A stretch of 64,000 nucleotides of DNA from the NCBI GenBank assembly GCA_023150615.1, contig JAKLKO010000006.1:1-64000 (forward strand), written 5' to 3'. Source of the DNA: Phycisphaerae bacterium. GTDB lineage: Bacteria > Planctomycetota > Phycisphaerae > UBA1845 > UTPLA1. Position numbers and translations under genes: made by a program. The number at the start of each line of letters is the position of its first letter. Position 1 is the stretch's first letter. The notes below the pieces were generated by a model. The model saw nothing but the letters and a program-made list of their open reading frames with translations. It was not told the origin of the DNA and did not search any database. This document shows, one piece after another, positions 79-51,045 of this stretch.

Positions 79-687
79 ATGGGACTGTTCGACTGGTTGA
101 CGAAGCGACAGAAGCCGCTTTCGGCGATGACGCGGAGCGAGCTGCGCCGGCAGGAGCTGCTGCTTCAGAAGGAGCGCGACCGCCTTCTGGCGCGCGTGAC
201 GGAGATCGCAGCGAAGAAGCAGGTGATTTTCGAGCGCGGCGCGAAGGAGAAGACGCCCGAGGTTCGTCGGGCCCTGGCGTCCGAGTTCGAGCTGCACACG
301 ACCGAGCAGTTGATGCTCTCGCGGCAGCTCAACATCCGCAGCAAGGAGGCGATCACGGTTTCGCGCCTGCGGATGCTCAAGGAGAACTCCGAGCGTGCGG
401 AGCGCGTCGGCAGCAAGCTGGGCCTGATCGGCGAGAAGGACCTGCTCGCGCTGGAGAAGCTCATCGAGAGCGACGCCATCACCGCCGAGATGTATCAGGA
501 TCGGCTCGATTCCATGCTTGCGGTCGGAGCGGAGGAGGCCGCGGCCGGCCTGACGCCGGCGGGCCAGCAGGTACTGGACGTGTGGGAGCAGATGGACACC
601 GGGCTGATGAAGGACTCGGGCGAGGCGTTTGACGAGGCGGATCGGCGCGTGCGCGAGCAGCACCGCGCGGCAGCCGAGGGCGTCTAG
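79..687 (+). CDS. ESCRT-III (Snf7/CHMP)-like coiled-coil protein A
   Basis: A 202-residue, almost wholly helical charged protein. It opens with a short hydrophobic/basic segment (MGLFDWLTKR), like the membrane-inserting N-terminus of CHMP proteins. A basic helical hairpin follows at about residues 19-108, then a shorter helix (about 119-150, LEKLIESDAITAEMYQDRLD) that resembles the alpha-4 region of CHMP6-type subunits, and an acidic C-terminus. This length and charge order (basic first half, acidic second half) is usual for ESCRT-III subunits. PspA/Vipp1 proteins are also ESCRT-III relatives, but they lack the neighbouring MIT-AAA ATPase. GGAAGG at 68-73 can serve as ribosome binding site. 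The gene lies 12 bases upstream of a second ESCRT-III-like gene and in one operon with a Vps4-like ATPase. The family assignment is inference from pattern and context; a generic coiled-coil protein is the alternative. Confidence 0.6.
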   Translation: MGLFDWLTKRQKPLSAMTRSELRRQELLLQKERDRLLARVTEIAAKKQVIFERGAKEKTPEVRRALASEFELHTTEQLMLSRQLNIRSKEAITVSRLRMLKENSERAERVGSKLGLIGEKDLLALEKLIESDAITAEMYQDRLDSMLAVGAEEAAAGLTPAGQQVLDVWEQMDTGLMKDSGEAFDEADRRVREQHRAAAEGV

Positions 688-699
688 GCAGGGAGCGTC

Positions 700-1308
700 A
701 TGTCACTGTTCAAGAGCTCCGAAGAGCGGCGCATCGAGCGCGACATCAAGATACGGCAGGGCATCCGGCGCATCGAAAAGGCCATCGCCGAGCAGAACAA
801 GTTCACCGACGAGTTCGTGCGCAACGCGCGTCGCGCCAAGCAGATCGGCGACGCGGCGCAGTACGCGTTCATCCGCAACTCGCTCAAGAAGACCGCGACG
901 ATCCGCAAGATGCTCGAGCGGCAATTGCTCGCGGTCAAGAACGCCCTGCTCATCAAGCGTCAGGCCGAGGCCAGCAGCGACTTCGCCACGGCCATGAGCA
1001 CGATGGCCCGTGAGATCAGCCGCATGTTCGGCGAGACGGACCTGAACCGCACGCAACTCGAGTGGGAGAAGGCCATGGCGCAGAGCCAAAGCATGGAGGA
1101 GCGCATGACCATGTTCCTCGAATCGGTCGAGGACATGGCCGCGGCGGACACCGCGGCGACTCCCGCGGAGGTCGTCACCGACGAGGAGATCGACGCGATG
1201 ATCGAGGCCGAGGCCGAGGCCGAGCACGTGCGCGAGAAGGAGAAGCTGGAAGGGCTCCGTGCCGAGCTGGACGCCCTGAAGGGGACGGGTCAGAAAGAGG
1301 CCAAGTAG
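700..1308 (+). CDS. ESCRT-III (CHMP2-like) protein B with MIM1-like tail
   Basis: A 202-residue helical protein. After a short N-terminus (MSLFKSSEE) there is a basic hairpin (about residues 9-90), then a segment rich in Met and Ser (about 93-147) containing LNRTQLEWEKAMAQ and SMEERMTMFLESVED. The segment strongly recalls CHMP2/Vps2, where the EFEKQ and KEEMMND helices lie at this point. An acidic stretch (DEEIDAMIEAEAEAE, 161-175) precedes the last helix, where L186, L190, L193 and K194 fit most of the MIM1 pattern (D/E)xxLxxRLxxL(K/R) that binds MIT domains. The expected Arg is Glu here. The stop codon TAG (1306-1308) overlaps the GTG start of the ATPase gene by one base, so the two should be translationally coupled. 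Predicted role: filament subunit of a membrane-remodelling polymer disassembled by the ATPase. Family assignment is inference. Confidence 0.65.
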   Translation: MSLFKSSEERRIERDIKIRQGIRRIEKAIAEQNKFTDEFVRNARRAKQIGDAAQYAFIRNSLKKTATIRKMLERQLLAVKNALLIKRQAEASSDFATAMSTMAREISRMFGETDLNRTQLEWEKAMAQSQSMEERMTMFLESVEDMAAADTAATPAEVVTDEEIDAMIEAEAEAEHVREKEKLEGLRAELDALKGTGQKEAK

Positions 1309-2414
1309 TGCACGTCAGCTACACGACCTTCGAGCGATTGAAGGACCGCGGCGTCTCGGCCTACCGCGGCGGCGACTACGCGGCCGCACGGAGTTATCTG
1401 ATCCAGGCGGCCGACGCGATGATCCAGCTTGCCGAATCAGCGCCAAGCGACGCGCTGCGGCGGCAGCGGGAGTCGCTGGCGCGCGAGATGATCGAACTGG
1501 CGAAATCCTGCGATCAGCGCAAGGCGGGGGACCGTCCCGCGCGTGCCCGAGAGCAGGACGACAGCTCGGCCGATGCGACGGACTGGATCGTGCGCGACAA
1601 GCCCAACGTCCGCTTCAGCGACATCGCCGGTCTGGAGGACGTCAAGCAGGAAATCCGCCTGAAGATGATCTACCCGTACACGCATCCGGAGCTGGCACAG
1701 CGCTACGGCATCTCAGTCGGCGGTGGACTGCTGCTCTACGGTCCGCCAGGCACGGGCAAGACGATGATCGCCAAGGCCATGGCGGCCGAGATCGACGCGA
1801 CGATGTTCGTGATCTCGCCGGCGCAGATCCTGAGCAAGTGGGTCGGCGAGGCGGAGCAGAACGTCCGCAAGCTGTTCGACGCCGCGAAATCGGAGCCGCG
1901 GGCGATCATCTTCATGGACGAGATCGAGGCGCTCGTGCCGCGCCGCCGGGAATCGCACAGCACCGTCATGACGCGCGTCGTGCCGCAGATCCTGCAGGAG
2001 CTGGAGGGCTTTGACCGGCAGGCAGTGCGGCCGCTGCTGTTCGCCGGGGCAACGAATGAACCGTGGGCGCTCGATCCAGCCGTGATGCGGCCGGGACGCT
2101 TTGACGCGAAGGTCTATGTACCCCTGCCGGATGCACCCGCGCGGCACCGGCTGCTGGAGCTGTACCTGGCGAACCGGCCGCTCGCCGCCGACGTCGATTT
2201 CGCCGATCTGGTCGAACGCCTCGACGGCTTCAGCGGCGCGGACATCCGGGCCGTCGCCGATCGCGCGGCTACGATTCCCTTTATGAACGCCGTCGGTGGC
2301 GAAACTCCGCAGCCGGTGACGCGCGCGGACGTGCTGCGGGCGATCGAAGAGGTCGGTCCGTCGGTGCGCAAGGCCGATCTGGCGCGATTCGAGTCGTTCG
2401 CCGCGGAGAACTGA
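1308..2414 (+). CDS. Vps4-like AAA ATPase with N-terminal MIT-like domain
   Basis: Starts at GTG 1308, overlapping the preceding TAG and preceded by AAAGAGG; 368 residues, close to Vps4 length. Residues 6-70 form a three-helix MIT-like domain (FERLKDRGVSAYRGGDYAAA, then helices with LIQAADAMIQLAE and LAREMIELAK). An acidic linker (71-95) leads to a single AAA domain of the Vps4/katanin/spastin (meiotic) clade: DKPNVRFSDIAGLEDVK, Walker A GPPGTGKT 145-152, pore loop SKWVGEAE 176-183, Walker B IIFMDEIE 200-207, sensor 1 ATN 248-250, arginine-finger region RPGRFD 261-266, FSGADI 308-313. The C-terminal helix (KADLARFESF, 355-364) matches the last helix of Vps4. Known Vps4 hexamers unfold ESCRT-III subunits bound through MIT-MIM contacts; here the putative substrates are the two genes just upstream. 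The AAA call is certain; the MIT call is strong. Confidence 0.9.
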   Translation: MHVSYTTFERLKDRGVSAYRGGDYAAARSYLIQAADAMIQLAESAPSDALRRQRESLAREMIELAKSCDQRKAGDRPARAREQDDSSADATDWIVRDKPNVRFSDIAGLEDVKQEIRLKMIYPYTHPELAQRYGISVGGGLLLYGPPGTGKTMIAKAMAAEIDATMFVISPAQILSKWVGEAEQNVRKLFDAAKSEPRAIIFMDEIEALVPRRRESHSTVMTRVVPQILQELEGFDRQAVRPLLFAGATNEPWALDPAVMRPGRFDAKVYVPLPDAPARHRLLELYLANRPLAADVDFADLVERLDGFSGADIRAVADRAATIPFMNAVGGETPQPVTRADVLRAIEEVGPSVRKADLARFESFAAEN

Positions 2415-2434: not shown

Positions 2435-4192
2435 ATGGTGGAACGAAGTCTCGCGATGGCGCTGTCGTCGACCGGCACGGTCGCCGTATTCGGTCCGCTG
2501 GATCGACTGCTCGATGGCGGTCGGTCCGGGCCGGGCGTGCCGAGCAACGCCGCCGCGGCGATCTGGAGCGCCGACGGGTCGGTCGCGGTGATCGGGCCGG
2601 GCGAGCCGGTGGATCGCGGGATGGCGCGCGATGCGCTCGTCTTCCTCGCCGCACCGTTTCCGCTGAGATTCCGCATCCCCGCGCTGCGCGCTGGCGATCG
2701 CTTTGAGGTCGAGGCCGACGTCGAATTCGACGCGACGTTGATCCGCGAGCGCGCGGAATTGTCCGCCTTCCGGCAATTCTGCATGGCGTCGGGGTCGGTC
2801 ACGGCGTCGGCGCTGGCGGTGCGCTTCGAGGAGCACGTCGCGGCGGTGCTGCGCGAGTACGTCGCCGCGCGGCCGGTTGAGTCCGTTGTCGGCAGCGCCG
2901 ACGACGCGGAACTCGATCGAGCGCTGGCGGCACGGTTGCAACCGGAGTTGTTTGCGATCGGGCTGGCGCTGGGGCGCGGCGTACGAACGGCGTTCCGCAG
3001 CGCGGCGTGGGAAGCGCTGCGTCGCGACGAGCAGTCGGCGGCCCTCCGCGAGCGGCAGGCCTCGGCGCAGGCGCGGATCCGCGAAGCGCTGGCCGCGGCC
3101 CGCGAATCGCACCTGGCGCACCTCGAGTCGCTCCTTAAGCGGATGCAGACGCTCTCGCAGGAGCAGGGCGGCGTTCGGCTGGCCGAACTCATCCGCGCGT
3201 TCGACCTCGCCGACCGCGGCGCGCTCTACGAGGGACTGCTCCGCCTCGCGCCGGCGGAGACCGTGACGCAGTTCATCGCGGCCGTTGCCGGTCACGAGCT
3301 GCTGTTCATCGATCCGGCCCGCCCGGAGTCGATCGCGAAGCGCGTGTCGTTCGGCCCAGAGGCTGGTCCGCTGCGGTCGATCCGCTGCGACGCCGACGGC
3401 ACGCTCCTGCTGGGGGCGGCGAACGGCGTGCACCGGTTGCGGCTGGCCGGCGGGCCACGACAGCTCTACATCTTCAAGCCGCCGAGTCCGCTGCGCGGCG
3501 GCGTCAACGCGGCGGTCGAGCGCGGGAGCCGACTGTATGCGACGCACTCCGAGGTCGGCCTGATCGATTGGCCGCTCGATCGGCCGAACGCGCCGGAGTT
3601 TCCGCTGTCCGACCTGACGCAGCGCGTGACGACGGTCCGTAACGTGCAGCTCGATGGGGACGGCCGGTTGTGGCTGGCCGTTGGCCCGAGCGTGGTGAAC
3701 TGGGCGCCCGATTCGCCGCTGGGGGCGGTGCAACTGTTGACCGGCGAGACGGTCGAGTCGCTGCTCGTCACGGCCGACGACGTGCTGGCCGGCCTGTCGA
3801 ACGGTTCGATCCTGCGCTTCCTGCGGGCCGATCCATCCGTACGGGAGGTGGTGCGGCCGGCGACGCGCGACGGCGTGCACGCACTGGCGGCGGTCTCGAC
3901 GGGCGGCGTGCCGCGCGTGCTGGTGGTGGATGGCCGACCGATGGCAGAGTTGCTCGTGCTCAGCGATGCGTACCAGGTTGCGTTCACCGCGCCGGAGCCG
4001 CTGCGCTGGGGCTGGTCGGCCGACGACTGCGTGGTGGCCGCGAACGAGCGCCGAGACCGGCTTTACGTCTGGCAGACGCGCGATCCGGCCCGGTCGCCGG
4101 CGGTCTGTCCGATCGGTCGGCTGAGCGGGCACTCGGTCCAGGATGTGCTGCTGATTCCCCGCGGTCGGATCGTCGAACCGGAGGCAATCTGA
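2435..4192 (+). CDS. SPFH-like/coiled-coil/beta-propeller protein of the ESCRT-like operon
   Basis: 585 residues, 20 bases after the ATPase gene, so probably co-transcribed. Three parts are visible. Residues about 66-190 have the strand and helix pattern of SPFH/band-7 (stomatin, prohibitin) domains, including VEADVEFDATLI and ELFAIGLALGRGVRTAF. Residues 190-250 are a charged coiled coil. About 295-575 consists of repeating beta-rich units (SIRCDADGTLLLGAANGV, NVQLDGDGRLWLAVGPSV, SLLVTADDVLAGLSNGSI) typical of a seven-bladed WD40/YVTN-like propeller. No signal peptide or clear membrane segment is seen. Flotillin-type SPFH proteins mark membrane domains, so a membrane-scaffold or adaptor role next to ESCRT-like proteins is plausible but is inference. 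The propeller part is more certain than the SPFH part. Confidence 0.6.
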   Translation: MVERSLAMALSSTGTVAVFGPLDRLLDGGRSGPGVPSNAAAAIWSADGSVAVIGPGEPVDRGMARDALVFLAAPFPLRFRIPALRAGDRFEVEADVEFDATLIRERAELSAFRQFCMASGSVTASALAVRFEEHVAAVLREYVAARPVESVVGSADDAELDRALAARLQPELFAIGLALGRGVRTAFRSAAWEALRRDEQSAALRERQASAQARIREALAAARESHLAHLESLLKRMQTLSQEQGGVRLAELIRAFDLADRGALYEGLLRLAPAETVTQFIAAVAGHELLFIDPARPESIAKRVSFGPEAGPLRSIRCDADGTLLLGAANGVHRLRLAGGPRQLYIFKPPSPLRGGVNAAVERGSRLYATHSEVGLIDWPLDRPNAPEFPLSDLTQRVTTVRNVQLDGDGRLWLAVGPSVVNWAPDSPLGAVQLLTGETVESLLVTADDVLAGLSNGSILRFLRADPSVREVVRPATRDGVHALAAVSTGGVPRVLVVDGRPMAELLVLSDAYQVAFTAPEPLRWGWSADDCVVAANERRDRLYVWQTRDPARSPAVCPIGRLSGHSVQDVLLIPRGRIVEPEAI

Positions 4193-43877: not shown

Positions 43878-44125
43878 GGTCATCACTGCGCTTGTCGGTC
43901 GTTGCGTGAAGCACTGCGCTGATCGGACCGGCGAGCGCGGGAGTCATGCGGTGTCGCAGTCACCGCGGGCGAGGGTCGATCGGAGACGGGGCATGGGTAT
44001 TCAAGACGCGAGAGCGCCCGGGACTCTTCCGATCGATTCGATCGACCGCGTGGCTGCGAACCGTCGGGTCGCTCCGACGGGTCGGATCGTCGCGGGATGT
44101 TGAGGAAGGGTGGAATACAGGCTCT

Positions 44126-47100
44126 ATGACCACTCGACGTCGATCATTGGCACGCATGGTCACGACCGGACTGGGGCTGGTCGTGCTGGGAACGTTCAGC
44201 GCGGGCATGGACTGCATGGGCGGCGGGACGCTGCCGGGCATTCCGGTCAATACACCGCCGACGGCGGCGATTACGCAGCCGACGTCGAACGTGTTCCTTG
44301 AGAACGGGGAGTCGACCACGGTTCGCTTCACGGCGCAGTCCGCTGAGGAAGACGCGACGCTGCAGGTGTTCCTCGACCGCGACTCAAGCCCGACGAACGG
44401 CAATGAGATATTCCTCGAGATCGGCGGACCGGGCGTGACGACGTTGACGGTGCCGGCCGGAGCGTCCGGCGTGTCCGGACAGGCGACCTTCGATTCGACG
44501 GGCGTCGTGAACGCGACGTACTACGCGTATGCGCGGGTAGACGACGGCGTTCAATCCCAGCCGGTCATCGTGGTGTCGGCCGGCGCGGTGATCGTGGCGG
44601 CGCCCGGCTCGCGGCCGCGGAACACGCGTCCGACGATTCAGATGCTTGAGCCGGTGCCGAACCTCGGGTTGTCGACGGACGACACGGTGACGATTCAGTA
44701 TTCGTACGTCGATCCGGACGGCGGTGAGAACAACGCGCCGGTGACGGTGACGCTGTACGCGGACTACGACCGCAATCCGAACAACGACGTGTTCGGCGAC
44801 CCGGCGGACCCGACGACGAACATCATCATCCTGCCGAATGCGGCGCGCGATCCGAACGATCCGACGTTCGGGAACGATCCGCCGCCGCCGGACGACATCA
44901 ACAACCCGCCGACCGATCCGGACAGTCTCGAGATTCGGACGAATCCGCGAACGCTTCCGGCGACGACGGTCGGGCTTCCCGCGCCGGTGAAGACGTATCG
45001 ATTCTCGATCGACTTCACGCAGCTTCCGCCGCGCGCCGACGGGAAGCCGTACTTCCTCCGCGGGACCATCAACGACGGCGTGAACACGCCGAACCACTCG
45101 TACGCCATCGGCTCGCTGTCGATTACGGCCCCGGCGTCCGGGACGGTGGACCTGGGCGACGTCGGGCGACTGGTCTCTGGGGCGCGCTTCCACGGTTTCA
45201 GCCGCAACGAGTTCCTCGGCACGTCCTTCACGACGGCGGAGGACATCGACGGCGACGGCGTGGACGACTTCGTGATCGTGTCGCGTTACGGAAGCCCGCG
45301 GAACCGGAACCAGAGCGGCGCGGCGTACCTGTTCTTCGGTCGGCGCAAGACGCCGTTCCCGCCGGACCGGAACGAGAACGGTCTGCCGGACGTGCTCGAC
45401 CAGAACGGCGAGATCGTCGATTTCCCCGAGCCACCGCTCTTCATCTATGACCCGGACGTTCAGGGCAACGTCAGTCCGTACGATCCGCGCGTCGTCGGCC
45501 GCTTCGGCGGGACGATCAGCGTCAACAGTATCGGGGCGCTGCTGGCTGGGTCGTTCTATCGCGGGGTGACGTACCTGATGCCGGAAGCGAACGGGCCGAC
45601 GCTGCCGCCGGAGGATCTGCGCGATCCTTCGCACGCGAACCTGGCGACGGCCGGGCTGACGTCGGTGACGCGGGTCAATCTGACCGGACAGGATGGCGAC
45701 GACGAGAATCCGCGGTCCGTTCCGGATTTCATCTTCGGGCTGCCGTTCATCTCGCACCCGCGCGAATTCGTGGACGATGATCCGTGCGATCAGATCGACC
45801 CTTCCTTCTACGGCGACATTGCTCCGAATCCGTTCTCCGATCCCGGCGGGCAGGGCGGCAACGACGACATGTGGCAACGGTTCGATTTTCCGATCGACAC
45901 GGGACTCGTGATCATGGTCGATGGCGAAAACGACCTGGCCAACACGTTTCGGCAGGTCGTGGATGCGGGGGCGGCGGGCCAGTTTGATCCGCGCGGCTAC
46001 GTGGATGACGAGGGAGTGCTCAATAGTCGCGCCACGACGCCGAACGGTGTCCGCTTCCGCGGCGCGTGGTATACGTTGTTCATCGAGAACGGTCCCCAAC
46101 AGCTGGATCCGATGAACGAGTTCGGTGCCGATGTGGCGGTGACGGCGTCGCTCGGGAACGATGCGGAGCCGGACCTGCTCGTCTCGGCCCCCGGCGAGCT
46201 TGGACAAAAGGGCGTCATCTACCTGTTCTTCGCGACGGACTACACGCTCCCCGGGTGGTTCGGGGAGGACGGCGTGCAGTCGCTCGTGGGCTACGTAGCG
46301 ATTGACTGCCAGATCCCGACGCGCGGCTTCGTCGGCGTTCCGTCGTTCGCCACGATCGCCGGTGCGGCGACGGGCGATCGGTTGTCGCGTCCACGGTCGG
46401 CCGGCGACATCAACCAGGACGGCACGATTGACATCATGGCCGGTGCGCCAGGCCGGTCGCGCGACGTCGACGGCGATGGGACTCTGGAACCGGACGTCGG
46501 GTTGTTCTATATCTTCTTCACGCCGTCGGGCGGATTCGGTGAAACCGACCTCGGGACCGAAGACATCCCGCGGATCGAGATCACGGGCGTCCACGCCGGC
46601 GATCGATTCGGCCAGATTCACGACATGGTCGGCGACATCAACGGCGACACGGTTGCGGACATCGCCTTCGCTTCGCCGTCGTACGACGATGACAACAATT
46701 TCAATCCGGATGCGGGCTTCGTCGGAGTGATCTTCGGCGACCGGCCGATCACGGGCGAGAACGGCTTCCTCGCGGAGGAAGTGGGCACGCCGGCGCTGCC
46801 CGGGTTGCGGTTCTACGGACCGACGATCGGGGCCCGCGCGGGTGCGAGCGTCGCCGGGGCGGGCGACTTTAATCGCGATGGATTCGGCGACCTGCTCATC
46901 ACCGCGCCGGGCGAGACGCGGGTCATTGCCGAGTCGTTCACGGACCTGAACGGTAACGGCCTGTTCGACGCCGGCGAGCCGTTCGACGATCGCAACAACA
47001 ACGGCATCCGCGACGTGCAGGTCCGCAAGGGCGTGGGCTACCTGATCTTCGGCGGAACGCACCTGGAAGCGAACGGTCCGTCCTACAATCTGTCGCAAGT

Positions 47101-47320
47101 GACCAGTCCGGAATTGCCGGGCATCGTCTTCATCAGCCCGTATGTCGAGGGCAGTCAGGAAGAGGCTCCGATCGAGACCGCGGCGGGCCTCAACGACATC
47201 GATGGGGATGGATTCGACGACATCATCTTCGGCCTTCCGAAGGCGGACTTCGTGTTCATCCCGACGCAACGGCGCAATGACGCCGGCGAGGCGTATGTGG
47301 TCTACGGGAACGGGTCCTGA
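44126..47320 (+). CDS. Giant exported FG-GAP/integrin-alpha-like repeat protein 1
   Basis: 1064 residues from ATG 44126; AGGAAGGG lies upstream. The N-terminal hydrophobic segment (MVTTGLGLVVLGTFSAGMDC) ends at a Cys, possibly a lipid anchor. Residues about 30-330 are Ig-like beta domains. From about 340 on, FG-GAP repeats with calcium-binding DxDxDGxxD loops recur: FTTAEDIDGDGVDDFVIVSRYG, SLGNDAEPDLLVSAPG, GDINQDGTIDIMAGAPG, GDINGDTVADIAFASPS, GDFNRDGFGDLLITAPG, NDIDGDGFDDIIFGLPK. Together they should form a seven-bladed propeller as in integrin alpha. The stop overlaps the ATG of a paralogue by one base (TGATG). Confidence 0.88.
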   Translation: MTTRRRSLARMVTTGLGLVVLGTFSAGMDCMGGGTLPGIPVNTPPTAAITQPTSNVFLENGESTTVRFTAQSAEEDATLQVFLDRDSSPTNGNEIFLEIGGPGVTTLTVPAGASGVSGQATFDSTGVVNATYYAYARVDDGVQSQPVIVVSAGAVIVAAPGSRPRNTRPTIQMLEPVPNLGLSTDDTVTIQYSYVDPDGGENNAPVTVTLYADYDRNPNNDVFGDPADPTTNIIILPNAARDPNDPTFGNDPPPPDDINNPPTDPDSLEIRTNPRTLPATTVGLPAPVKTYRFSIDFTQLPPRADGKPYFLRGTINDGVNTPNHSYAIGSLSITAPASGTVDLGDVGRLVSGARFHGFSRNEFLGTSFTTAEDIDGDGVDDFVIVSRYGSPRNRNQSGAAYLFFGRRKTPFPPDRNENGLPDVLDQNGEIVDFPEPPLFIYDPDVQGNVSPYDPRVVGRFGGTISVNSIGALLAGSFYRGVTYLMPEANGPTLPPEDLRDPSHANLATAGLTSVTRVNLTGQDGDDENPRSVPDFIFGLPFISHPREFVDDDPCDQIDPSFYGDIAPNPFSDPGGQGGNDDMWQRFDFPIDTGLVIMVDGENDLANTFRQVVDAGAAGQFDPRGYVDDEGVLNSRATTPNGVRFRGAWYTLFIENGPQQLDPMNEFGADVAVTASLGNDAEPDLLVSAPGELGQKGVIYLFFATDYTLPGWFGEDGVQSLVGYVAIDCQIPTRGFVGVPSFATIAGAATGDRLSRPRSAGDINQDGTIDIMAGAPGRSRDVDGDGTLEPDVGLFYIFFTPSGGFGETDLGTEDIPRIEITGVHAGDRFGQIHDMVGDINGDTVADIAFASPSYDDDNNFNPDAGFVGVIFGDRPITGENGFLAEEVGTPALPGLRFYGPTIGARAGASVAGAGDFNRDGFGDLLITAPGETRVIAESFTDLNGNGLFDAGEPFDDRNNNGIRDVQVRKGVGYLIFGGTHLEANGPSYNLSQVTSPELPGIVFISPYVEGSQEEAPIETAAGLNDIDGDGFDDIIFGLPKADFVFIPTQRRNDAGEAYVVYGNGS

Positions 47321-50300
47321 TGTTTGAGGGAGCGCGTCGCATCGAGACCGGCGGCGGCTCGGGCGATGCGACGCGGGAGCAAACGACCGTGAGCACCCAC
47401 CAGCAACAACTTGATCTTCGCGAGCCTCGGTCGCCGATGGCGCGGCCCGTCGGGAATCGATCGCTGCCGACGTTGCTTCGTTCGATCGTCGTCGCTGTCG
47501 CCGCGGTGATGCTGGGCGTCGGTCTGGCCTGCCAGACGGGCGTTCCCGCGCCGGGAACGAATCCCAATCCGGGCGGCGGAAACCCCGCGCCGCAGCCGAT
47601 CCCCGGCGGCGGCGGACAGAACTCTGCGCCGGTGCTCACGTTCCTCTGGCCTGGCACGAACATCACGATCCAGGACGGGACGTCGGTTTTCGTCCAGTAC
47701 CGCGTGCAGGATTCGACCGACACGGTGCGCGTGAGTCTTCTGGTCGATCCGGATGCGAATCCGTCGAACGGCAACGAGATCGTCCTCGCGACCGGCATTC
47801 AGGCGACGCCGCCAATCTTCAACGGCGTGTTCGAGTGGAATACGACGGGCTTCCCGCCCGCGACGTACTTCGTCCGCGGCACGGCGGATGACCAGGTCAA
47901 CGCCGTGGTCCGTGCGTCGGCGATCGGCACGGTGACGATCCTGCCGCGTCCCGGCGATCCGCCGGGCGGCGGCGGTGGTGGTGGCGGTGGCGGGACTCCG
48001 CCGAACGAGGTGCCGCAGATCTTCGTGAGCACGCCGTCGCAGCCGTTGCAGATCGATGCGGGCGCCCAGGTGCGTGTTGATTTCACGTTCATCGATCGCG
48101 ACAACGACAAGACGGTGACGTTTTTCGCCGATCCGGACGCGGCCGACGAGAACGGGAACGAGACGATGATCTTCGGTCCGCAGATCTACACCTCGCCCAC
48201 CGGCACCGATTCGTTCATCTGGGATACGACGGGGATCGCACCGGGGACCTATCGCGTGGTCGGGGAGATCGACGACGGCGTCGCCGGGCCGGGTCGTCCG
48301 GCGCGATCGGCCGCACCGGCGCTGGTCACGATTCTCGATTCGGGAACCGGATTGCCGAGCGTGAAGCCGCAGGTGATCGTCGATGCGGGGTTCATCTCCG
48401 GGGTGATCAATGATACGTTCAATCCGCCGATCGTCGGGCAGGGGGCGTTCGTGCTCCTGCCGCGGGCCAATCGCGGTGTGCGTAACGGCGACGAGGTCGA
48501 AGTGCGGATGGTGCTTCGCAACGCCGAAGTCCAGGAATCGCTGACGATCCTGGTCTATCTCGACACCGACACGGAACCGAGCAACAACAACCTGAGCAAC
48601 CCGAACGGTACGCCGGGCGATCCGTTGCAGCAGCCGTTGATCCTCGTGTCGCAGTTCGCGATCGCGGGGAACGCGTATCCGGAGAATGACTTCTTCGAGC
48701 CGTTGCCCGGCATCGTGCTCGATGAAACGGACCCGACGGATCCCCTGCCGCTCGCGGTGCCGCTGCGATTCCCCATCGATACGTCGGTCGTCCCGGTCCG
48801 AACGGAACGCGACGAGCTGGGCCGGCCGTTGGGATATTTCATCCGCGTCGTGGTGGATGACGGCCACACGGACGTGCAGGGGAATCCCGATCACCGCGTC
48901 AGCGGCTATTCCGATGCGCCGATCTATGTCCAGCGGGCGTCGAGCGGCACGCTCGATCTGCGCGATCTCAACAAATTCGCCGGCGCGACGTTCCACGGCG
49001 TCGCGCCGCTTGATTTCCTCGGCAGCGCTTTCGCTCCGCTGCGCCAGATCGGCGAGGTCCCGGACCTGTTCCTCGACATCGTGTACGGGATCGACACGCC
49101 AGACACGGATGACTTCATGATTGTCGCGCGGTACGGCACGCCGCGAAACCGCATCAACGTCGGTACGGGCTATGCCATCTTCGGGCGTCGAAACATCGCC
49201 CCGTTCGGTCGGTTCGCGGGCGTGAACAGCGTGGCCGGCGTTGACCCGACCCTGCTCGGCGAAATTCGTGGATCCGTCGTGGCGAGCACACTGGCGTGCT
49301 GTAACAACCCGGTTGCGGCGCCGGCCGGGACGATCATCGCCGATCCGGACCATCCGGGCCTGCCGTGGAGTGGGATCACGAGCGTGACGACGATCGGCGA
49401 CGTGACGGGCGACCAGATGCGCGACGTGGTCGTCGGGCTTCCGTACCACTCCGGGTTGTTTGATGCATTCGATCCGGACCCGTGCGACACGGCGGACAAT
49501 CCCGACGAGCCGCTCCCGGACGACTACTACAACGAAGGCGGGTTCCCCGACGCGGATCCCGGCACCGATGAACCTACGAACGACGACATCGGGTGCTACG
49601 ACGAGACGCGCGGCGAGTCGATCTGGCAGGGCTACGTCTTTGCGTTGTCCGGTGCGGCGTTGACGGATAACAACCTGAACGACCTTCAGTTGGTGGGGCA
49701 GCGGGAGTTCCGTGAGCGGCCGCTCGAGTGTGTTCCGGACACGACCATTCCAGTTCCAGACGGGGCGCGCTTTCGAGGGGGGGCGTTCGAGTTTCCGGCG
49801 TCCGTGGGACCGACGCGGCCGGATCATCTACCGATGCACTCGCTTAGCCAGTTCGGCTACACGGTGACCACGGGTTTCGGCTTGCTTGGGAACCCGTTCT
49901 TCGAAAATCTGGTTGTCTCCGCGCCCCTGAATTCCGCTCCGGGCGGGACGATCTTCCCGGGGGCGATCTTCGTCATCCCGGGGACCAACTACCTCGCCTT
50001 GGCGATTGAAGAGGATCCGCTTGGCGAGCCGAATTGTAGTTTCCCCAATATCGTGCACTTCGATCCGCGGACGTGCGACACGGACGACCCGTACGGTCTG
50101 CGGCGGCGCTTCGGTCCGACCGCGGCGCAGATCTTCGGTGCCACGGACCGCGACGGACTCGGCTTTGCCACGGCGGTGCTTGATTTCAACCAGGATGGCG
50201 CGAACGACATCCTGTGCGGAGCTCCCGGGACGGACCTGCCGGCGACGGACGCCGGGACGACTTATGTGCTCTTCGGACAGGCGATCGGCTTCGGCGAGGT

Positions 50301-51045
50301 CAACCTCGCGGTGCACACGAACTTCCCGCGGATCGAGATTCGCGGGCTCGCCAACGGCGACGGTTTCGGCATGGTCCAGGAAGCCGCGGGCGACGTGAAC
50401 GGCGACCGCGTGGCGGACATCATCATCGGCTCGAAGAACTTTGACAACGGCGCGGATGTGAATGCGGGGTTCGCGGGTGTCGTCTTCGGCAGTCCGACGT
50501 TTTCGACCAGCGCCGGGGCGCAGGTCTTCTCCGCGACGCAGATCGGCACGGCCGGCCAACTCAACGGCGTGCGGTTCTTCGGAGCGGCCGCCGGGGCGAT
50601 GGCGGGGGCGTCGGTCGCCGGCGCGGGGGATTTCAACCGCGACAACTACGACGATATCCTGATCGCCTGCCCGGGCGAGAGCCGCACTATCCAGGCCGAG
50701 CAGCCGGGCGGCGGCACGGTGTTGGAGACTCGCCGCGGCGTCGCGTATCTCGTGTTCGGCGGTCCGCACATCGTCAATCAGTCGTTCAACCTGTCGCAGG
50801 TCGGAACGGCGGTGCTGCCAGGCATGATCTTCATCTCACCGTACAAACAGGGCACCGGCGACGAAGCGCCGCTCGAGGTCGTGGCCGGAATCGGCGACGT
50901 GGACGGCGACGGTTTCGACGACATCGCAATCGGTGCGCCCAAGGCTGATCTGGTCTTTCCGCTGATTCCCGCGGCTCGACGCGACAAGGTCGGCGAGGCG
51001 TACATCATTTACGGGAACAACGTCGGGAGTAACACCGTTCCGTAG
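47320..51045 (+). CDS. Giant exported FG-GAP/integrin-alpha-like repeat protein 2
   Basis: 1241 residues, a paralogue of the preceding protein with the same order of parts. A hydrophobic N-terminal segment ends in VGLAC (possible lipoprotein). Pro/Gly-rich linkers (PNPGGGNPAPQPIPGGGG and a poly-Gly run near 216-225) separate Ig-like domains (about 100-560) from FG-GAP repeats (LDFNQDGANDILCGAPG, GDVNGDRVADIIIGSKN, GDFNRDNYDDILIACPG, GDVDGDGFDDIAIGAPK). Both proteins end with VGEAYIIYGN / AGEAYVVYGN. I use ATG 47320 because it overlaps the previous stop; an in-frame ATG at 47437 directly before the signal segment is an alternative. Role: surface adhesion or structure, inferred. Confidence 0.87.
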   Translation: MFEGARRIETGGGSGDATREQTTVSTHQQQLDLREPRSPMARPVGNRSLPTLLRSIVVAVAAVMLGVGLACQTGVPAPGTNPNPGGGNPAPQPIPGGGGQNSAPVLTFLWPGTNITIQDGTSVFVQYRVQDSTDTVRVSLLVDPDANPSNGNEIVLATGIQATPPIFNGVFEWNTTGFPPATYFVRGTADDQVNAVVRASAIGTVTILPRPGDPPGGGGGGGGGGTPPNEVPQIFVSTPSQPLQIDAGAQVRVDFTFIDRDNDKTVTFFADPDAADENGNETMIFGPQIYTSPTGTDSFIWDTTGIAPGTYRVVGEIDDGVAGPGRPARSAAPALVTILDSGTGLPSVKPQVIVDAGFISGVINDTFNPPIVGQGAFVLLPRANRGVRNGDEVEVRMVLRNAEVQESLTILVYLDTDTEPSNNNLSNPNGTPGDPLQQPLILVSQFAIAGNAYPENDFFEPLPGIVLDETDPTDPLPLAVPLRFPIDTSVVPVRTERDELGRPLGYFIRVVVDDGHTDVQGNPDHRVSGYSDAPIYVQRASSGTLDLRDLNKFAGATFHGVAPLDFLGSAFAPLRQIGEVPDLFLDIVYGIDTPDTDDFMIVARYGTPRNRINVGTGYAIFGRRNIAPFGRFAGVNSVAGVDPTLLGEIRGSVVASTLACCNNPVAAPAGTIIADPDHPGLPWSGITSVTTIGDVTGDQMRDVVVGLPYHSGLFDAFDPDPCDTADNPDEPLPDDYYNEGGFPDADPGTDEPTNDDIGCYDETRGESIWQGYVFALSGAALTDNNLNDLQLVGQREFRERPLECVPDTTIPVPDGARFRGGAFEFPASVGPTRPDHLPMHSLSQFGYTVTTGFGLLGNPFFENLVVSAPLNSAPGGTIFPGAIFVIPGTNYLALAIEEDPLGEPNCSFPNIVHFDPRTCDTDDPYGLRRRFGPTAAQIFGATDRDGLGFATAVLDFNQDGANDILCGAPGTDLPATDAGTTYVLFGQAIGFGEVNLAVHTNFPRIEIRGLANGDGFGMVQEAAGDVNGDRVADIIIGSKNFDNGADVNAGFAGVVFGSPTFSTSAGAQVFSATQIGTAGQLNGVRFFGAAAGAMAGASVAGAGDFNRDNYDDILIACPGESRTIQAEQPGGGTVLETRRGVAYLVFGGPHIVNQSFNLSQVGTAVLPGMIFISPYKQGTGDEAPLEVVAGIGDVDGDGFDDIAIGAPKADLVFPLIPAARRDKVGEAYIIYGNNVGSNTVP

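Follow-up and report, generated by a model that had tools for sequence, protein, structure and literature searches.

Systems that combine vps4 with ESCRT-III genes have been described as confined to archaea and eukaryotes (PMC10936438, 2024), and bacteria as being without a clear Vps4 (PMC7615534, 2023). No Vps4 is known to act together with PspA (PMC7615534), and the VPS4-like genes that have been reported from bacteria come without snf7 (PMC11237479, 2024). Crenarchaeal CdvB, for its part, is without MIM1 (PMC7240154). Here we analysed a stretch of 64,000 nucleotides from a Phycisphaerae bacterium (the window), and our best reading is that it encodes a bacterial ESCRT-III/Vps4-like module, with a genuine MIT domain and a conserved non-canonical MIM1-like hook, of a kind that the literature we found denies to bacteria. 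No description of a bacterial ESCRT-III/Vps4 pair was found in the literature searched, which included few subscription journals and preprints, and a prior description may exist.

Gene layout of the locus

The module is encoded near the start of the window by the gene of an ESCRT-III-like protein (B) and that of an AAA ATPase, flanked by two conserved neighbours (A and D):

79 to 687, forward strand: gene A, 202 aa, helical; conserved neighbour upstream of B, matching no known family
700 to 1308, forward strand: gene B, 202 aa, Snf7-type ESCRT-III-like protein; stop codon TAG at 1306-1308
1180 to 1305, forward strand: C-terminal helix region of B, residues 161-202, with a predicted helix at 161-201; it follows a variable linker (149-158)
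1246 to 1281, forward strand: MIM1-like hook of B, L183-K194 (L183, L186, L190, L193 and K194, with E189 at the MIM1 Arg position), marked out by conservation, a background test and loss where the ATPase is absent
1308 to 2414, forward strand: Vps4-like MIT-AAA ATPase, 368 aa, GTG start at 1308
1320 to 1523, forward strand: MIT domain, ATPase residues 5-72, three helices, from a profile search of the PDB and a predicted model
1728 to 2126, forward strand: AAA core, ATPase residues 141-273 (Pfam PF00004, 5.1e-38)
2307 to 2408, forward strand: Vps4_C-type C-terminal oligomerisation segment, ATPase residues 334-367 (Pfam PF09336, 25.3 bits against a cut-off of 21.3)
2435 to 4192, forward strand: gene D, 585 aa, with an N-terminal region of an unmatched family and a C-terminal WD40-type beta-propeller; conserved downstream

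A preliminary description of this DNA had reported a one-base overlap between the genes of B and the ATPase, and base 1308 is indeed common to both reading frames. The GTG start at 1308 matches the starts of homologues, and AGAGG, at 1296-1300, could plausibly serve the ATPase as its ribosome-binding site. Residues L186, L190, L193 and K194 of B were found where they had been placed, and FERLKDRGVSAYRGGDYAAA in the N-domain of the ATPase starts at F8. ATPases closely related to this one (57-75% identity) were found in about 20 planctomycete MAGs and complete chromosomes, and in most of them A, B and D lie close by.

Gene A lies upstream of B in most of these close loci; its product is highly conserved and helical, starts with MGLFDWLT and has no detected known relative. 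Its profile found no match in the PDB and no significant match to the profile of B, and gene A as a second ESCRT-III protein is therefore unsupported. Gene D, present in most close loci, has a profile that matches propellers and WD40 proteins in the PDB (E 5e-11). Elsewhere in the window, FG-GAP repeat proteins of very large size, 1124 and 1241 aa, are encoded at 43946-47320 and 47320-51045 by two genes that also overlap by one base.

The ATPase carries an N-terminal MIT domain

When a profile of 25 homologues of the N-domain was compared with the whole PDB, the top match was the MIT domain 2mpk (E 4.8e-4, residues 11-69), and 2mpk was again the best match of an enlarged profile of 34 sequences (E 6.2e-4). 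This entry is the MIT domain of chitin synthase 1, and MIT domains are known from Saprolegnia chitin synthases (PMC8851075). The remaining PDB matches were TPR hairpins or designed bundles, mostly with one hairpin covered. Searched singly against Pfam, N-domain sequences gave weak hits only, namely TPR fragments and, in one member, MIT (PF04212) at a best E of 0.012, below significance.

We then compared the predicted model of an orthologue (locus L001, ATPase 75% identical) with known structures. The model has three helices at a pLDDT of about 90-95, and Foldseek matched it with probability 1.00 to the MIT domains of SKD1/VPS4B, VPS4A, katanin p60 and archaeal Vps4. VIA aligned it with the MIT domains of katanin (Z 12.3, rmsd 1.2 A over 75 residues) and VPS4A (2jq9; Z 11.8, rmsd 1.3 A over 70), and the top structural matches overall were MIT domains, the best of them at 1.1-1.3 A over about 70 residues. 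Because TPR and SRP72 segments came next in the VIA list at Z 10-11, sequence evidence is also needed for the identity of the domain. Such evidence came as well from a second planctomycete ATPase adjacent to B, whose N-domain profile matched the full length of the VPS4B MIT (E 1.2e-4) and is homologous to that of the window ATPase (hhalign E 4.5e-9). TPR was rejected as the identity of the N-domain, since its matches span a short helical hairpin only, whereas the MIT matches span the whole three-helix domain. The first ~70 residues of the ATPase, previously called MIT-like, are thus a genuine MIT domain on both sequence-profile and predicted-structure grounds.

Further along the protein, Walker A, Walker B, the sensor and the pore loop KWVGE are intact, and Pfam AAA, lid_3 and Vps4_C all score above their cut-offs. 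The NCBIfam CdvC model covers residues 15-364 at 221 bits, far below its cut-off of 650, in a near tie with the CDC48 D2 model (227 bits), and the arginine-finger motif, RPGRFD, is of the CDC48 type. An N-terminal MIT domain, a single AAA domain and a Vps4_C segment make up the Vps4 layout, and it is by this layout that the ATPase is best called Vps4-like.

Protein B belongs to the Snf7 branch of ESCRT-III

Taken alone, B from the window falls below the cut-off of the Pfam Snf7 model (PF03357, E 3.3), and the scan of the window's own genome with this model did not match it. The family profile of B gave five matches in the PDB, four of which were ESCRT-III proteins (Snf7 at 0.022 and 0.023, CHMP3 at 0.031 and CHMP2A at 1.1), and a homologue of B at locus L024 (29% identical, E 1e-12) passes the Snf7 cut-off (32.1 against 27.3 bits). 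For the predicted model of B (pLDDT 76), the top Foldseek matches were CdvB, CdvB2 and CHMP2A-CHMP3, none at E ≤ 0.001, and in VIA, BAR domains stood level with ESCRT-III at Z 8-10; for these reasons it is chiefly the sequence that places B in the Snf7 branch, and the fold is consistent with this. PspA/Vipp1 was rejected as the family of B, given that B matches Snf7 and that its own genome, which is 99.6% complete, gave no match to PspA_IM30. The earlier proposal of an ESCRT-III-like B has therefore held: its sequence affiliation as a Snf7-type ESCRT-III protein is well supported, and it may polymerise on membranes.

The C-terminal tail of B is MIM1-like and non-canonical

Conservation in the C-terminal region of B includes an EEID motif at residues 162-165. 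L186 and K194 never vary among 18 close homologues, where position 190 is L or I, 193 is L or V and 183 is L or M, while positions 184, 191, 192 and 195-198 drift. When tails were tested for L-x3-[LI]-xx-[LV]-K within the last 30 residues, the pattern was present in all 14 distinct close-homologue tails and in 2 of 612 unrelated C-termini, and in 0.6% of shuffles of the window tail, which is more than chance would give. All of 29 further loci from the same order, a set that overlaps the 18, fit it too. Loss of the Leu/Lys residues in close homologues that keep the operon had been named beforehand as evidence that would count against the proposal; it was looked for, and the pattern was kept throughout. 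The looser spacing h-x3-h-xx-h alone occurs in 142 of the 612 background tails, and on that ground the tail of B could be merely a coiled-coil element.

The canonical MIM1 consensus is (D/E)xxLxxRLxxL(K/R). L186, L190 and L193 supply its three leucine-type positions, spaced 4 and 3, and K194, found in 18/18 close homologues, its terminal K/R. The Arg before the second Leu is replaced by E189 in all 18, with Arg appearing only in distant families, and the position three before the first Leu, acidic in the consensus, is L or M (183), again in 18/18. The MIM1-like tail of the preliminary description thus stands in its leucine spacing and terminal lysine, and fails in the arginine, which is an invariant glutamate, and in the missing upstream acid. 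Other planctomycete families have tails of the form D-x-x-I-x-x-G-L-x-x-I, near-canonical MIM1 tails, DDKVGGRLESLR for example, occur in the distant family f26, and a relaxed MIM1 pattern was found in 8 of 66 tails against 0 of 612 in the background. These comparisons indicated that the B tail, as predicted from its sequence, is a conserved helical MIM-like element, MIM1-like yet non-canonical in the window's group.

The tail and the ATPase are retained together

Among 61 genomes of the window's order, B and the window-type ATPase were both present in 48, both absent in 11 and present singly in 2 (Fisher 3e-10, uncorrected for relatedness); six genomes of the order at 90-99% completeness are without both genes. 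In 35 of the 48 genomes the two genes are same-strand neighbours, in 10 they are on different contigs and in 3 they lie apart on one contig, so the link between B and the ATPase is not only physical. Across the phylum, the h-x3-h-xx-h tail is kept in 32/32 genomes with the window ATPase type, defined as a score of at least 437 bits. Two families, f30 and f83, keep B in the absence of this ATPase type (no match over about 304 bits), and their tails resemble EIARELGED, the third hydrophobic residue being lost in 13 of 16, a decay that traces to one or two lineages and not to many independent events, so that the small p-value of this contrast exaggerates its weight. Such decay is the change expected if the window ATPase type reads the tail. 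Co-occurrence in the order and tail decay where the ATPase is absent make functional coupling of B and the ATPase well supported.

In VPS4A, L64D blocks helical MIM1 and V13D blocks MIM2 (PMC11218997). The window ATPase has I62 as the equivalent of L64 in the MIM1 groove, aliphatic in 34/34 sequences, and K12, by ungapped extension of helix 1 beyond the HMM alignment, as the equivalent of V13 in the helix 1/3 groove of MIM2, where K or R stands in 30/34 and a residue that is not hydrophobic in 33/34. The VPS4A sequence used was checked at L6, V13, F39 and L64. An aliphatic I62 together with K/R at K12 favours for the tail the helix 2/3 groove, in which canonical MIM1 binds. As the two genes at L001 are in frame, a fused tail-linker-MIT model was feasible there; it gave a pTM of 0.69 with a helical tail at pLDDT 77-85, although the tail is tethered and a whole-model score proves no interface. 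We infer from these data a direct contact between tail and MIT domain, as the preliminary description had predicted, and the groove in which it would occur.

Distribution of the module and a second ATPase

Of 392 sampled Planctomycetota genomes, 56, from across the phylum, carry B, as do 49 of the 61 genomes of the window's order; since the latter include single-contig genomes, contamination was rejected as its source. Outside the order, many families have a second MIT-AAA ATPase of ~412 aa, with a Vps4-type LSRFEKKI motif, upstream of B (loci L026, L057, L059-L065, L071-L078, L082, L085 and L087-L107), and in some families (f30) it is the sole one. In 21 genomes of the window's order this second ATPase was not found, the best match in each genome being the window ATPase type.

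Two loci bear labels from other phyla. In a MAG labelled Chloroflexi (L024, 4326-6031) the same pair occurs with a 4-base overlap and an ESCRT-III-like protein over the Pfam Snf7 cut-off, so either the system reaches beyond Planctomycetota or the label is wrong. The label of L010, Alphaproteobacteria, is probably a mislabel; in both ESCRT tail and ATPase N-domain it shows no difference from L112 (G414), which belongs to the window's order.

No FtsZ was found in the window's genome (99.6% complete), and none over the family cut-off in the 392 sampled Planctomycetota, including 336 without B. FtsZ replacement as a general function was rejected because FtsZ absence does not track the module, and with FtsZ over the cut-off absent in all 392 genomes, division is not specifically implied.

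Discussion

Sequence, profile and model show the fold of the MIT domain, the membership of B in ESCRT-III, the intact ATPase motifs, the conservation of the tail and the co-occurrence and co-loss of the two genes. We consider it likely that B and the ATPase together make up a bacterial module of the ESCRT-III/Vps4 type, in which an MIT-recruited ATPase would remodel a polymer of ESCRT-III by way of a helical hook that is MIM1-like but non-canonical. Snf7-type B would assemble into filaments on the membrane, and its tail helix, as the hook, would recruit the ATPase by touching the MIT domain. The recruited AAA ring would presumably thread B subunits through its pore and then remodel or disassemble the polymer. 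With the elaborate membranes of planctomycetes and no FtsZ over the cut-off in the sample, membrane remodelling is the cellular role that we would propose, and the module is a concrete candidate for it.

The name MIM1 may be wrong even for such a module, because the tail could lie on the MIT domain in another groove or orientation, as in the type 3, 4 or 7 helical modes. In humans, helical MIMs are bound in several MIT grooves (PMC9477494), the spacing of hydrophobic residues does not by itself determine the groove, and the change from Arg to Glu is invariant in the window's group; the aliphatic I62 (34/34), the K/R at the V13 equivalent (30/34) and the near-canonical tails of f26 argue the other way, leaving this docking a lesser possibility. 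We regard it as unlikely that the tail helix makes an intramolecular or polymer contact, autoinhibitory or filament-stabilising, while the MIT domain recognises some other target, for instance the membrane, gene A or gene D. In B modelled alone the prediction of the helix has moderate confidence, A and D are conserved neighbours, and phosphatidic acid is a ligand of one oomycete MIT domain (PMC8851075). Against this, the tail pattern is kept in 32/32 genomes with the ATPase and lost in a lineage without it, and the tail sits at the extreme C-terminus after a variable linker, where MIMs lie.

More improbable again is that the ATPase, instead of being of Vps4 type, acts as an unfoldase like CDC48, its N-domain a TPR-like adaptor and B a general substrate. 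The slight lead of the CDC48 D2 model over CdvC (227 against 221 bits), the RPGRFD motif in the AAA core and the short TPR models matched by individual N-domains point that way. They are set against a TPR match that covers one helical hairpin where MIT covers the whole three-helix domain, a Vps4_C segment above its cut-off, the Vps4 layout of a single AAA domain behind an N-terminal MIT, and tight co-occurrence with an ESCRT-III protein.

An ESCRT-III/Vps4-like pair that almost all members of one bacterial order possess, and that is scattered across the rest of its phylum, would alter the known distribution of this machinery, and would offer simple bacterial models in which to study the origin of the MIT-MIM code. 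Since crenarchaeal CdvB is without MIM1, a bacterial MIM1-like tail bears directly on whether this docking mode is older than Asgard archaea, passed from one domain to another or has two origins. About evenly balanced, in our judgement, is the broadest claim: that Planctomycetota, a phylum without recognisable canonical FtsZ, possess a full, vertically conserved ESCRT-III/Vps4 machine with MIT-MIM1-type recruitment, known before only in eukaryotes and Asgard archaea, and that many of their families have two different MIT-AAA ATPases acting on one ESCRT-III protein.

Comparison with known systems

Bacterial PspA/Vipp1 (PspA_IM30) shares with B the ESCRT-III superfamily and a helical, membrane-remodelling character, and E. 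coli PspA (4whe) reaches Z 8.6 against the B model, but B matches Snf7 and not PspA_IM30. The VPS4-like AAA+ ATPases of bacteria, described as transfers from archaea (PMC11237479), resemble the window ATPase in kind and host; in those systems snf7 is said to be displaced by an unrelated TPR/6TM gene, whereas here snf7 and the ATPase are paired.

Archaeal Cdv likewise encodes a Snf7-type ESCRT-III protein (CdvB) together with an MIT-AAA ATPase (CdvC), S. islandicus CdvB and CdvB2 are the top Foldseek matches of B, and the CdvC model spans residues 15-364 of the ATPase. The module described here differs in its bacterial host, in that no CdvA was identified, and in an ATPase at 221 bits against the CdvC cut-off of 650; archaeal CdvB, moreover, has a proline-rich MIM2 and is without MIM1 (PMC5840170, PMC7240154), in contrast to the helical leucine tail of B. 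The Vps4 and Vps2/24/46 (CHMP1-3) proteins of eukaryotes and Asgard archaea share with the module the same MIT fold, a helical leucine motif at the C-terminus of ESCRT-III and a Vps4_C segment. From these the window's group departs by a Glu in place of the MIM1 Arg, the lack of the upstream acid, RPGRFD in the AAA core and its bacterial host.
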